From: Leptolyngbya sp. 'hensonii'
GTDB taxonomy: Bacteria > Cyanobacteriota > Cyanobacteriia > GCF-001939115
Length of the DNA stretch: 43,462 nucleotides
NCBI RefSeq assembly: GCF_001939115.1
Contig: NZ_MQTZ01000007.1
Span: 1 to 43,462, forward strand
Reading direction: 5' to 3'
Under the pieces are notes generated by a model. The model made no database searches. It saw only the letters and a list, made by a program, of their open reading frames with translations, and was not told the origin of the DNA. This document shows, one piece after another, positions 23,076 through 43,462 of the stretch. A program made the translations under genes and the position numbers. The first letter of the stretch is position 1; each line of letters opens with the position of its first letter.

Positions 23076-23117
23076 TTTGAAGATTCTATATCAATCGATA
23101 GTCTGCTGAACCTGATT

Positions 23118-23266
23118 GGGAGCATGTCACTTTTGCAGTGATGCTTTCTAGCCCTCATCCCCCAGCCCCTTCTCCCAAAAAGGGCGAAGGGGAGCCGAAT
23201 CATTTCAAAGTCCCTCTCCCAAATTGGGAGAGGGATTTAGGGTGAGGGCAAAGGTGACATGTACCC
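23118..23266. mobile_element. MITE-like element with 9-bp flanking duplication
   Basis: About 149 bp. Left end GGGAGCATGTCACTTTTGC (23118-23136), right end the imperfect inverted copy GCAAAGGTGACATGTACCC (23248-23266; 16 of 19 positions pair). Inside is a second palindromic pair GCCCTCATCCC / GGGTGAGGGC and two further hairpins. ACCTGATTG occurs at 23110-23118 and again at 23268-23276, consistent with a 9-bp target duplication. No coding capacity. Same family as the elements at 40111, 40553 and 41617. Confidence 0.75.
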
Positions 23267-23269
23267 GAC

Positions 23270-23507
23270 CTGATTGACTGACAAAACTCCTGAAACCCTT
23301 AAAATCCACTAAGAAATGAGAATTAAATAAAGTAGGGGTTTGGGGGCAAAGCCCCCAAGCAGGGGCGTTGCCCCTGCACCCCAATGGTTCATCTTATTTA
23401 ATTCGTGATCCTAAGTTGAAGTGAGATCCGAAACCCAAGGTAAACCCTTGACAAGGTTGGGTTTCGCTCTGCTCCACCCAACATGAACAGTTTTGTCAGT
23501 CAATCAG
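23270..23507. repeat. 238-bp element bounded by a 19-bp perfect inverted repeat
   Basis: CTGATTGACTGACAAAACT at 23270-23288 is exactly inverted at 23489-23507. Between the ends lie the cloverleaf-like element at 23320-23404 and a further inverted pair CGAAACCCAA / TTGGGTTTCG near 23430-23466. No open reading frame. The MITE at 23118 appears to have inserted into or next to its left end. Confidence 0.75.
23320..23404. repeat. 85-bp cloverleaf-like palindromic element
   Basis: Outer stem GAATTAAATAA (23320-23330) / TTATTTAATTC (23394-23404). Two inner hairpins: TTGGGGGC-AAA-GCCCCCAA and CAGGGGC-GTT-GCCCCTG, with GGGGT/ACCCC pairing also possible. The sequence is not a tRNA. A folded small mobile element or transcribed structure are both possible. 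Confidence 0.7.
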
Positions 23508-38900: not shown

Positions 38901-39211
38901 AGGGGAATATGCCAGAGAAGTGCTTCAACTTGACTCAACATTTTCCTACATTATTCCTGGTTTTCTGAGAAGCTTTGGATTCTTTTAGTTTTTCAGAGTA
39001 AAACCCAAAAATGTTTTGCTTGATCTTCACTCGAAAATTTTCAACAAAAACCTATATTTTTAAGTCGAAAAGATCAAATACTAAGCCATGCAAGAACTGC
39101 AGATTTACTGAAATACTCCGAGAATTGCATTGTTGTAGCAGCCAGAAAAATCTGGACATCGCCAATCTTCTTGACTTGACTATGGTATATGATGAAACTG
39201 GAGAAATATTA
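38901..39211. other. Intergenic region containing a TerB gene remnant
   Basis: 311 bp between the divergent STAND gene and the PEP-CTERM gene. A fragment at about 39143-39200 is similar to the TerB-like gene at 41163. Otherwise AT-rich with no credible gene. Confidence 0.5.
39143..39200 (+). pseudogene. Fragment of a TerB-like gene
   Basis: The block ATCGCCAATCTTCTTGACTT (39159-39178) and the surrounding CAGAAAA... and ...ATGGTA segments match 41406-41460 in the intact TerB-like gene, encoding the shared IANLLDLTMV. Upstream and downstream homology is lost. A decayed duplicate or the site of recombination. Confidence 0.65.
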
Positions 39212-40090
39212 ATGGAAATCAAATCCACTGAATTCACGTTTATAAAGTGTTTCCATCATGCAGAGAAATCTTTGCTTGCACCTTTGGTGATTGCCTGTTT
39301 ACTCAGTTTTGGCTCTGCAGTTCAAGCTGCAACTCTTAATACCTGGAGTGAAATATTGGATTCACCTAATGACAGTATTCAAGGTGATACTGTAGGTGGG
39401 ACTGTTTATGAAATCTATAAGGCATTTTACAGACAGAGAGAAGAAAGGATTGACCTTGCCTTCAATACAAACTTCCCTTTTCAGGGTGTGAGTAGTTCTT
39501 TTGCCAGTGATGGCTATATCGGCTTTGGTGATATCATTATCAATACCACAGGCCAGAATTTGAGTGCTGCTCAGGGAGAATTATTTGCAATTCGAGCTGT
39601 CTCAAATAACAATTCAGCAGCTCCTAATTTGGGTTTATTGGGAGATGTGTCTGCTAAATCTGTTGCTTCCCAAAATGGGTTAAAACCTGCAAACTTGCAG
39701 GCGTATAACAGTTATGTTCAAAGTAATGGAGGGCAACCCTCGATCGGGGACCTACCTGCCAATACGATTTACTTTGATCAGAATGTACATATTCCCAATG
39801 TGATTGCCTCTGGAACCTGGCTCGATAATGTTCAGTGGTTAAGTCCAGCAGATTTAAGTGGCTTGGGTGGACCTGGACAATACACCTATGGAGTCAGCTT
39901 TGCCAGTTCTATTTTGCCTGATGGCTCTTTTATCTTCCACTGGGGACCAGAGTGCAATAATGATGTGATTGCTGGTATTGTTGAAAAAATTCGTGTTCCT
40001 GAGCCGTCCAATGTACTAGGTTTTGCTCTAATGCTAATTGGACTTGCAACAAAGTTTATAACAGGTGTAGTTAAGCCTGCTCTTAAATAG
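39212..40090 (+). CDS. PEP-CTERM surface protein
   Basis: 292 residues from ATG 39212, chosen because GGAG lies eight bases upstream and it puts the signal peptide (SLLAPLVIACLLSFGSAVQA) near the N-terminus; a longer frame to 39011 runs through a gene remnant and is rejected. The mature part is a beta-rich domain with the HWGPECNNDVIAG motif common in cyanobacterial exosortase substrates. The C-terminus carries the full sorting signal: VPEPS, a hydrophobic helix (NVLGFALMLIGLATKFI) and basic residues. Expected to be processed by an exosortase elsewhere in the genome and displayed at the surface. More AT-rich than the housekeeping genes here. Confidence 0.85.
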   Translation: MEIKSTEFTFIKCFHHAEKSLLAPLVIACLLSFGSAVQAATLNTWSEILDSPNDSIQGDTVGGTVYEIYKAFYRQREERIDLAFNTNFPFQGVSSSFASDGYIGFGDIIINTTGQNLSAAQGELFAIRAVSNNNSAAPNLGLLGDVSAKSVASQNGLKPANLQAYNSYVQSNGGQPSIGDLPANTIYFDQNVHIPNVIASGTWLDNVQWLSPADLSGLGGPGQYTYGVSFASSILPDGSFIFHWGPECNNDVIAGIVEKIRVPEPSNVLGFALMLIGLATKFITGVVKPALK

Positions 40091-40110: not shown

Positions 40111-40234
40111 GGGAGCATATCACCTTTGCAAGAGAGTATTTATACTCATAGGCTATGATGCTCTATCTACAGACTTTCAGCTATCCTGTTGTGCTACCAC
40201 TCAAGTTCTGCATCTGCAAAAGCGACATGCGCCC
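40111..40234. mobile_element. MITE-like element, copy 2
   Basis: Left end GGGAGCATATCACCTTTGCA (40111-40130), right end the inverted TGCAAAAGCGACATGCGCCC (40215-40234). Interior about 84 bp without coding capacity. No flanking duplication is visible. Another isolated end, GGGAGCATGTCGCTTTT, lies at 40243-40259. Confidence 0.65.
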
Positions 40235-40349
40235 TGACATGCGGGAGCATGTCGCTTTTCTAATTAGCAGAAATGCTTAAGAGGCTGGGTACTGAAAAAT
40301 ATAGGCGGTATCGGTCAGAATCAGAGCAATCTACTCCAGCAACAAAGCC

Positions 40350-40540: not shown

Positions 40541-40552
40541 GGCGATCTAGAA

Positions 40553-40692
40553 GAGTGCATCCCACTTTTGTAGCCCTCTCCCTAAATCCCTCTCCCCTTC
40601 TGGGAGAGGGACTTTGAATCTGGCTCCCCTTCTCCCAAAGAGGGAGAAGGGGCTGGGGGATGAGGGCAACCTTGCAAAACTGGGATGCTCTC
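40553..40692. mobile_element. MITE-like element, copy 3, with 9-bp target duplication
   Basis: 140 bp. Left end GAGTGCATCCCACTTTTG, right end CAAAACTGGGATGCTCTC (inverted with one or two mismatches). The core (about 40572-40667) is the same palindromic type as at 23151-23249. GATCTAGAA flanks both sides (40544-40552 and 40693-40701), a clear 9-bp target duplication. It sits immediately after the ISKra4 remnant. Confidence 0.8.
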
Positions 40693-40805
40693 GATCTAGA
40701 ACCTTGAAAAGCAGGTTAGGAGCGTTATAAATCACCACAAAACAAGCTGAGAAACTGAAGGTGTTGCTGCATCGTGAATTAAGCCCTCATTTGGAGAATT
40801 GCTAC

Positions 40806-40899
40806 TCCTACGTTCCGCAGGCTAACAGATATTTTTATTTGTGGATTGGCCTACCGATCTCTGAAAGCCTTATAGAGGGTCAACCTGCGGAACGTAGGA
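40806..40899. repeat. 94-bp element with a 16-bp perfect inverted repeat
   Basis: TCCTACGTTCCGCAGG (40806-40821) is exactly inverted at 40884-40899. The interior has no gene. Confidence 0.75.
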
Positions 40900-41162
40900 T
40901 AAAAGCTGATGTTATTTAACACTCATTCCTAAGTTGATATTCTCTTACACTTTCTTACATTTTTGAGGCAGGCGTGGCTTTATTTACTTCCACGTAAAAA
41001 TAAAATAGGCCACTTCTGTCAGATTAAACTTTATCAAATAAAAATTTCGCCTGAAGAAAATATACAAAATCCTGCATTTTTTCACGAATGGAGTGAAATA
41101 TTAAGTCATCTCAGTAAAACCTCTTGAATTGTGGGTTCTCATGAGTCAGATTAGGAAAATTT
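40900..41162. other. AT-rich intergenic stretch before the TerB-like gene
   Basis: About 260 bp, AT-rich, with no credible gene. It probably holds the promoter of the TerB-like gene, but I see no clear -35/-10 pair. Confidence 0.35.
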
Positions 41163-41582
41163 GTGGAAATATTTTCTGAACAACTATCAGAGAGTGGTCA
41201 GGAAGACCTCACGCCAATGAGTGCCATTGCGCTAGCTGCGATTACTATTATTGCAGTGAAGACTACTATTAAAGCTGATGCCATTGATAGGTTAAAACGG
41301 ATAGTAAAAGGTGATAGTCGATCGCTCCAAATCGCCTATAAAGTATATAAAAATAAGTCCACTGATGAATGTGTAATGATTGTCAATAATGCTTTGGATG
41401 GCGATCAGAAAATTGCGGCGATCGCCAATCTTCTTGACTTGACAATGGTAGATGGGACTTTGACTACAGCAGAAAAGCGAATTATAGAGAGTTACATTAT
41501 GGTGTTCCAGATTAATGAAGCTGTTATTCAAAATATTATCGAAGTCATTGCAATTAAAAATGACTTTTCTATCTTCTCCTAA
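41163..41582 (+). CDS. TerB-like protein
   Basis: 139 residues, starting at GTG 41163. After a hydrophobic segment (SAIALAAITIIAVKTT), the C-terminal half has the helical TerB pattern: IAAIANLLDLTMVDGTLTTAEKRIIESYI, with the acidic residues that follow the MVDG turn. TerB proteins bind metals and are associated with tellurite and stress systems; no ter operon is near, so function is open. AT-rich compared with the housekeeping genes, and part of its sequence is duplicated at 39143-39200. Confidence 0.7.
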   Translation: MEIFSEQLSESGQEDLTPMSAIALAAITIIAVKTTIKADAIDRLKRIVKGDSRSLQIAYKVYKNKSTDECVMIVNNALDGDQKIAAIANLLDLTMVDGTLTTAEKRIIESYIMVFQINEAVIQNIIEVIAIKNDFSIFS

Positions 41583-41616
41583 GTTGCAAATTCGCCCACC
41601 CAAGGGGAAGCCGCTT

Positions 41617-41715
41617 GGGAGCATGTCACTTTTGCAGATTCAAGATTTTCGGAGTGCGAGCGTCTCGCTCGCGAGCGGGACGCTCGCACTTCTATAACAA
41701 AACTGGGATGCACTC
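41617..41715. mobile_element. MITE-like element, copy 4, followed by a solitary end
   Basis: Left end GGGAGCATGTCACTTTTGCA (41617-41636), right end CAAAACTGGGATGCACTC. The middle is a 38-bp palindrome (41653-41690) built from AGTGCGAGCGTC and its complement, with one mismatch. AGCCGCTTG occurs at 41609-41617 and 41716-41724, an 8-9 bp target duplication, and a second left end starts at 41724. Confidence 0.75.
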
Positions 41716-41778
41716 AGCCGCTTGGGAGCATGTCACTTTTGCAGATGCACAAATTTGGATTTAGAGTGCCCGTGTAAG

Positions 41779-43051: not shown

Positions 43052-43462
43052 TTATGCTGGTGAGGCACAGTAACAGCAATGAGAGAACCAGTTCCTTAAG
43101 TCGCTCGATGACACCTGGGAGAAAGCTTCATCAATAGCTTTGGCAAGTTCTGGATAACTGCGTGCCTTAATCGAACGCAGAATGCTCTTAATCTTTGAAA
43201 AGCAATTCTCGATAGGCGAAAAGTCTGGTGAGTAAGGGGGTAGGAAAATTAGCTTGGCTCCTGCATCCTCAATCAAATTTCTAACGTCTTCACCCAGATG
43301 AATAGAGCAGTTATCCAGGATGACACAGGCACCTTTCCATAACTTAGGCACAAGTTTCTGGGAAATAAAGGCTTCAAAGGTCAGTCCATCAGTTGACCCC
43401 ATGAGATTGCAGTAAGTCACGACCTCCCGCAGACTAATCGCCCCTAGAATCGAGACTCGTTT
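43052..43462 (-). CDS. IS630 family transposase (partial, runs off the window)
   Basis: C-terminal 136 residues of a DDE transposase; the frame is open to the right edge (RVSILGAISLREVVTYCNLMG). Catalytic residues in view: Asp in VILDNCSIH and Glu in PIENCFSKIK, with the intervening LIFLPPYSPDFSPIENCF motif. The first Asp would lie outside the window. A palindrome TAGTT/AACTA at 43028-43042 may mark the element's end. In the minus-strand orientation the gene's 3' end faces the Rpn pseudogene. Confidence 0.9.
   Translation of the reverse strand, partial: KRVSILGAISLREVVTYCNLMGSTDGLTFEAFISQKLVPKLWKGACVILDNCSIHLGEDVRNLIEDAGAKLIFLPPYSPDFSPIENCFSKIKSILRSIKARSYPELAKAIDEAFSQVSSSDLRNWFSHCCYCASPA

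Follow-up and report, generated by a model that had tools for sequence, protein, structure and literature searches.

The short elements of the window, which is the entire contig C7 (43,462 nucleotides) of the cyanobacterial genome G000 (5.94 Mb, 77 contigs), are most probably MITEs of two related ISKra4 transposases whose interiors are independent palindromic units, a reading given a probability of about 0.87. The MITEs are of an ordinary and known kind and form a well-documented set with a partner IS for the ISKra4 family. The new part is the interior, a travelling double-hairpin core, and it is this core that deserves following. A preliminary description of the same DNA had proposed that a common transposase acts on the ends of elements with unlike cores. 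The observation stands once corrected, and the idea that mobilisation depends on the ends is of the right kind, but two related transposases, not one, are concerned.

Short elements in the window and across the genome

Table 1. Coordinates of MITEs, cores, target duplications and the solo end in the window
Feature	Position	Strand	Size	Remarks
Target duplication of A, left copy	23110..23117	+	8 bp	ACCTGATT
Element A, GG-type MITE	23118..23266	+	149 bp	ends GGGAGCATGTCACTTTTGC / GGGTACATGTCACCTTTGC
Double-hairpin core of A	23152..23249	+	98 bp	
Target duplication of A, right copy	23268..23275	+		ACCTGATT; after extra G at 23267
Fourth element, decayed, GG-ended	40111..40234	+	124 bp	interior unrelated; duplication not kept
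Target duplication of B, left copy	40544..40552	+	9 bp	GATCTAGAA; exact
Element B, GA-type MITE	40553..40692	+	140 bp	ends GAGTGCATCCCACTTTTGT / GAGAGCATCCCAGTTTTGC, those of the resident ISKra4 IS
Double-hairpin core of B	40573..40666	-		homologous to core of A
Target duplication of B, right copy	40693..40701	+	9 bp	GATCTAGAA; exact
Target duplication of C, left copy	41609..41616	+	8 bp	AGCCGCTT
Element C, MITE	41617..41715	+	99 bp	left end GG, right end GA; one of three copies
Palindrome of C	41654..41689	+	36 bp	
Target duplication of C, right copy	41716..41723	+	8 bp	AGCCGCTT
Solo GG-type end	41724..41746	+		abuts duplication of C

The three elements first described, A, B and C, are real and carry the ends named for them (Table 1); these ends give six and three matches in the window, where 0.01 and 0.07 would be expected by chance. 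Their direct flanks, put at 8 to 9 bp, measure 8 bp at A, 9 bp at B and 8 bp at C, the ninth base at A being the element's own first G. Element A is one of eight near-identical 149-bp copies in the genome. The account of the cores needs correction: those of A and B are homologous (84% alike), and C contains a near-perfect palindrome of 36 bp. This palindrome occurs only three times in the genome, always between ISKra4-type ends. The fourth element is absent from the preliminary description, and its homologue at G000:C55:21096-21218 has an intact duplication.

The direct repeat at C extends to 31 bp (41609-41639 = 41716-41746) because a further GGGAGCATGTCACTTTTGCAGAT end starts straight after C's duplication. 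Since the flank repeat of C merges into this longer repeat, C alone is no proof of target duplication, and the interpretation of the flanks as target duplications, ambiguous there, is upheld by the genome-wide set described below. The position of the solo end at 41724-41746 would fit insertion of C into an older element's duplication, and no partner for this end was found up to the contig end at 43462. Another GG-type end, GGGAGCATGTCGCTTTT, at window positions 40235-40262, starts exactly 8 bp past the right end of the fourth element, so that here too two ends adjoin at an 8-bp spacing. The remaining two copies of C differ from it at the left end (GGGAGCATCCCATTTTTGC, GGGAGCATCACATTTTTGC), and the left end of C may have arisen by conversion after insertion. 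A dispersed stretch, GCCCACCC(C/A)AGGGGAAGCCGCT, adjoins C at 41582-41616 and is also found inside two GG-ended elements (L012, L019); C seems to be nested in the remains of an element with this stretch. A plasmid search with element C as query returned no match. The surroundings include a gene for an XDD3-family exosortase-dependent surface protein (NF041930, E=2e-42) at 39011-40090, just upstream of the element cluster, and a truncated DDE_3 transposase (PF13358) at 43052-43420 on the minus strand, which belongs to an unrelated IS that breaks the assembly at the contig end.

Scans of the whole genome for the GG end (GGGAGCATGTCACTTTTGC) found 14 places at one mismatch or fewer and 20 at two, and a scan for the GA end (GAGTGCATCCCAGTTTTGC, up to three mismatches) found 87; reversed-pattern controls gave 0-2 matches. 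The fetched flanks yielded 45 distinct elements with inverted ends and a length below 250 bp. They range from 99 to 216 bp and comprise 29 GA-ended, 12 GG-ended, three type C (99 bp) and one mixed element. An exact flanking repeat is present in 35 of the 45 (8 bp in 15, 9 bp in 20), and a repeat of at least 8 bp was seen in one of 1,980 mismatched flank pairs used as a control. Among the ten elements without an exact duplication, four still match over 7-8 bases if a shift by one base or a single mismatch is allowed. The mixed MITE, at C1:7053-7219 (L021/L022), has a GA end on one side and a GG end on the other, lacks a duplication and is probably a recombinant between the families through the shared core. 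Neither of the two counter-indications that the preliminary description had raised is seen: most other copies have duplications, and the same ends occur on unrelated interiors rather than within a longer conserved repeat.

Two ISKra4 lineages with the ends of the MITEs

The full-length IS with the same ends that the preliminary description had suggested looking for is present in G000 as a 1,182-bp element of the ISKra4 family with 8-9 bp duplications. Its copy at G000:C39:4095-5276 has the ends GAGTGCATCCCAGTTTTGT / GAGTGCATCCCACTTTTGC, and the GA ends (GAGTGCATCCC..) of the MITEs are the ends of this IS. The transposase is assigned to the ISKra4 family (NF033572, E=2e-81, 274 bits, cut-off 205). 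ORFA (78 aa) is overlapped by ORFB in the -1 frame at GAT TTT TTA, a canonical -1 slippery heptamer. Membership of the ISKra4 family is indicated by the transposase family, the -1 frameshift layout, the 8-9 bp duplications and the G-rich ends, the last two being compared with the values known for the ISMich2 group. Two ORFs restored by a -1 frameshift are a hallmark of that group (PMC3942029).

Eight left-end and nine right-end flanks of the IS are present in the assembly, most of them at the ends of contigs, since the assembly breaks at identical copies. The left and right flanks of five copies split by contig breaks re-pair via 8-9 bp duplications, those of copies other than C39 being deduced by pairing contig ends. 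The C39 copy is the only complete one in the assembly; its own flanks are mismatched and each matches the flank of another contig, so that it is a join of two insertions (recombinant or assembly join). The elements are short, multi-copy and without a transposase gene, their terminal inverted repeats are common to autonomous IS (C39 for GA, genome G024 for GG), and duplications of the same length occur on them and on the five paired IS copies, which together identify them as MITEs. They share ends and not interiors with the autonomous element, as expected for a transposase that works on ends only and as the preliminary description had supposed. By the standard inference from common ends and duplication length, the resident IS would move the MITEs.

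The comparison beyond G000, which alone makes up the family- and order-level set, was made at class level with 390 sampled genomes, and GG ends (GGGAGCATGTCAC..) are present in 56 of them. G024 possesses an IS of 1,149 bp with the ends GGGAGCATGTCAG / GGGAGCATGTCAC, flanked on both sides by AAGGAAGC. Its transposase also matches NF033572 (E=2e-82, 277 bits) and is 56% identical to the GA transposase. Thus two ISKra4 lineages explain the two kinds of termini, and the notion of one common transposase gives way to this. The GG-type IS of G024 (L178, 323-1543) lies within a reverse transcriptase gene (PF00078), which it interrupts in the 3' part. No intact transposase of the GG lineage was found in G000, where only ISKra4 fragments accompany the GA copies. 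The GA transposase could use GG ends as well, as hinted by the mixed-ended C lying inside one 8-bp duplication.

The double-hairpin core between unrelated ends, in genes and beside DUF559

The core of A folds into two hairpins within an outer stem and is 80-88% alike to the cores of B and other GA elements. A match to it is found in 220 of the 390 cyanobacterial genomes. Recognisable inverted ends of 11 patterns enclose the core in 51 of 89 fetched loci (control, 13 of 3,000 random flank pairs), the patterns other than ISKra4 being read from the same loci that they classify and the control addressing chance, not choice. There are 24 loci with ISKra4-GA ends and three with ISKra4-GG ends (plus eight with one end recognised). 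Further patterns are TAGACCTCTTGCA, TTAACCTGGCA and TCAGTAGATC (four loci each), TTGAAAACTGTAG (three) and four patterns seen twice or once; independent support for the non-ISKra4 patterns is their recurrence in different genomes, which a single-locus pattern does not have. The unrelated ends around the core include TAGACCTCTTGCA, GTAACTACTCAG and TTAACCTGGCA, each recurring in several genomes. Within each end type the core keeps a constant distance from the ends, 8 and 2 bp at most GA loci. In an alignment of 90 cores the stems hardly vary and compensatory changes affect two of 23 pairs, so that covariation lends the structure no support; the cores had been chosen for similarity, which also hides covariation. 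An Rfam search yielded sub-threshold chance matches only, and nothing relevant was found in the open-access literature on the core or on DUF559 with palindromes. Separate palindromic elements that inserted between the ends account better for the unlike cores of the MITEs, and the core may be an independent palindromic element that hitch-hikes in MITEs.

Copies of the core also stand alone inside genes. At five of 25 loci without recognisable ends the core lies in a reading frame that stays open for 50 residues or more in both directions, compared with one of 64 loci with ends. Such copies lie in an HsdR-type protein (PF04313, PF04851) in three genomes, in a pyruvate phosphate dikinase-type protein (PF01326) in G249 and Phormidium sp. 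FACHB-1136, and in two genes of G000 with four copies between them. The in-frame insertions in different genes are precise and have the same end points (PHP..PSP..GEG..FRVRA). In a sister-species comparison with G178, neither G123 nor G116 has the core at the HsdR site: G123 reads GGGTATAGCCCAGAAGTTCC and G178 reads GGGTATAG-[CCCTCACC...GGGTGAGGGC]-GGAAGTTCC. The filled site is longer by 30 codons (90 bp net); a CCC is shared, and no clear duplication is seen. Distant HsdR homologues are also without the core, and the core at HsdR is therefore a gain.

One of the G000 genes with cores (L252, G000:C60:22000-29500, minus strand, P0002) encodes an Eco57I-type R-M enzyme (PF07669) with three in-frame cores, two of which, in the same orientation, bracket a DUF559 domain (PF04480, E=7e-30). 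This core-DUF559-core arrangement can be read as a composite mobile unit inside a restriction gene. On the Pseudanabaena galeata plasmid pPg_02 (L363, NZ_CP112876.1:152062-154379) the same arrangement recurs in frame within another large R-M-like protein, whose gene is similar to that of C60 but has the unit elsewhere in the methylase.

A sample of 20 places with DUF559 genes and 4-kb flanks (L373-L392) was drawn from Cyanobacteria, Deinococcota and Proteobacteria. A C-rich hairpin of the core type adjoins the DUF559 gene at 15 of the 20, among which are close relatives (Azospirillum, Deinococcus, Picosynechococcus) that bring the effective number below 20. The density of C-rich hairpins is 2.5 per kb near the DUF559 gene and 0.15 per kb elsewhere in the same loci; the motif is present at six of nine annotated DUF559 loci and in two of 24 other intergenic gaps of annotated loci. 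The upstream and downstream flanks of DUF559 are more alike than control windows, which are mostly coding (Mann-Whitney p=1e-7). DUF559 genes of several phyla have C-rich double-hairpin palindromes on one or both sides, and an Azospirillum locus shows the full layout of outer stem and two hairpins. No DUF559 relative was found in viral contigs. A palindrome-endonuclease partnership at DUF559 loci is possible and offers a lead, and perhaps DUF559 moves the core. It is tentatively proposed, at somewhat less than an even chance, that the core is no MITE sequence but a separate and widespread double-hairpin mobile family that inserts precisely and often in frame into genes and into other mobile elements, with DUF559 (Vsr-fold) as its mobility enzyme and with ISKra4 and other MITEs as vehicles that captured it repeatedly. 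Under this proposal the enzyme would be that of the palindrome-flanked DUF559 genes of cyanobacteria, deinococci and proteobacteria.

Proposed mechanism, alternatives and known systems

How the MITEs move is inferred from sequence, and this applies to the part played by these transposases, to the chemistry in detail and to the succession of steps. An ISKra4-family transposase would move MITEs of 99-216 bp in trans by binding their ends of about 18 bp and cutting the elements, and insertion through target cuts staggered by 8-9 bp would leave duplications of that length. The resident 1,182-bp IS, whose transposase is predicted to be made via the -1 frameshift at T_TTT_TTA, would act on the GA-ended MITEs, and a second ISKra4 lineage that is absent from or was lost in G000 would act on the GG-ended ones. 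The palindromic core, perhaps cut in by DUF559, would land at C-rich sites, which may lie in a gene or inside a short MITE between its ends. Entry of the core into a short MITE probably came first and amplification of the composite afterwards. Other IS families, mostly unnamed and represented by their ends, would move the same core between those ends. Conjecturally, long hairpins may favour short MITEs by drawing the ends together.

A single transposase, that of the resident GA-type IS, might instead mobilise GA-, GG- and mixed-ended elements alike. The eight GG-type 149-bp copies are 99-100% alike in their cores and so moved recently, yet only the GA lineage is intact in G000; moreover, C has one end of each type within one duplication and the GA and GG ends share G.G.GCAT..CA.TTTTG. 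This explanation is nonetheless unlikely, as a separate ISKra4 lineage with exactly the GG ends exists in G024 and the ends match in nearly all elements, the sole other mixed one (C1:7053-7219) lacking a duplication and looking recombinant. It is still less probable that GG and GA MITEs are one family that diverged at its ends, with a core inherited once and not repeatedly inserted. Such descent would fit the likeness of the two ISKra4 end types and the constant distance of the core from the ends within each, but the same core lies between unrelated ends in several genomes and alone in genes, and for end types other than GG and GA it is already hard to hold. Coincidence of ends and flank repeats in a repeat-rich genome, to which the longer 31-bp repeat at C might point, is refuted by the control of mismatched flank pairs (1/1,980), with the end-scan controls also against it, and has a negligible probability.

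The core itself may not be self-moving and may spread between MITE families by hairpin template switching or recombination, its in-gene copies being rare accidents. Hairpins provoke template switching, the HsdR insertion has only the shared CCC in place of a clear target duplication, and the MITE at C1:7053-7219 is a recombinant. This view is serious but rather doubtful: against it speak several insertions that are precise, keep the frame of different genes and have identical end points, as well as the core-DUF559-core composites of two cyanobacteria. Under the reading of the core as a mobile family in its own right, its presence in over half of the cyanobacterial genomes sampled, in about ten kinds of inverted-repeat element and in frame in genes suggests that small palindromes are a mobile class of their own that uses MITEs as vehicles. 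DUF559 is a common endonuclease family of unknown role, and its recurrent company with the core gives a class of bacterial repeats a candidate enzyme that can be put to the test. To our knowledge, no enzyme has been known until now for such a class.

The resident IS resembles the ISMich2 group of the ISKra4 family (p-MULT 4, Mutator superfamily; PMC3942029) in its NF033572 transposase, its -1 frameshift ORF pair, a length of about 1.15-1.2 kb and its occurrence in cyanobacteria. Named ISKra4-family neighbours are transposases of Microcystis, Nostoc and Oscillatoria plasmids, e.g. ISOni1. G000 differs in having far more short non-autonomous relatives (45) than full copies (about eight) and in the foreign palindromic interiors that these relatives contain. 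The small dispersed repeats of cyanobacteria (Elhai and co-workers) are reportedly tiny mobile repeats of 21-27 bp within other repeats; the core, at about 98 bp and with two hairpins, would differ from them. Nezha and the MITEs of Microcystis and Anabaena, cited in the available part of a review (PMC10969869), are likewise short, with terminal inverted repeats, target duplications and many copies per autonomous partner; one homologous core common to unrelated MITE families is not described in that part. The same part treats the Rickettsia palindromic elements (RPE), which are likewise short palindromes in frame in unrelated protein genes. The likeness is one of in-frame insertion behaviour only and the core is not claimed as an RPE member, since RPE have another sequence and belong to another phylum, and the cyanobacterial core is also found in MITEs and beside a DUF559 endonuclease. 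The REP/REPIN and RAYT system (PMC3116915) is similar in its paired dispersed hairpins, possibly moved in trans by one enzyme that has these palindromes on both sides of its gene. The difference is that the candidate enzyme here is DUF559 (PF04480) and not a Y1 transposase.
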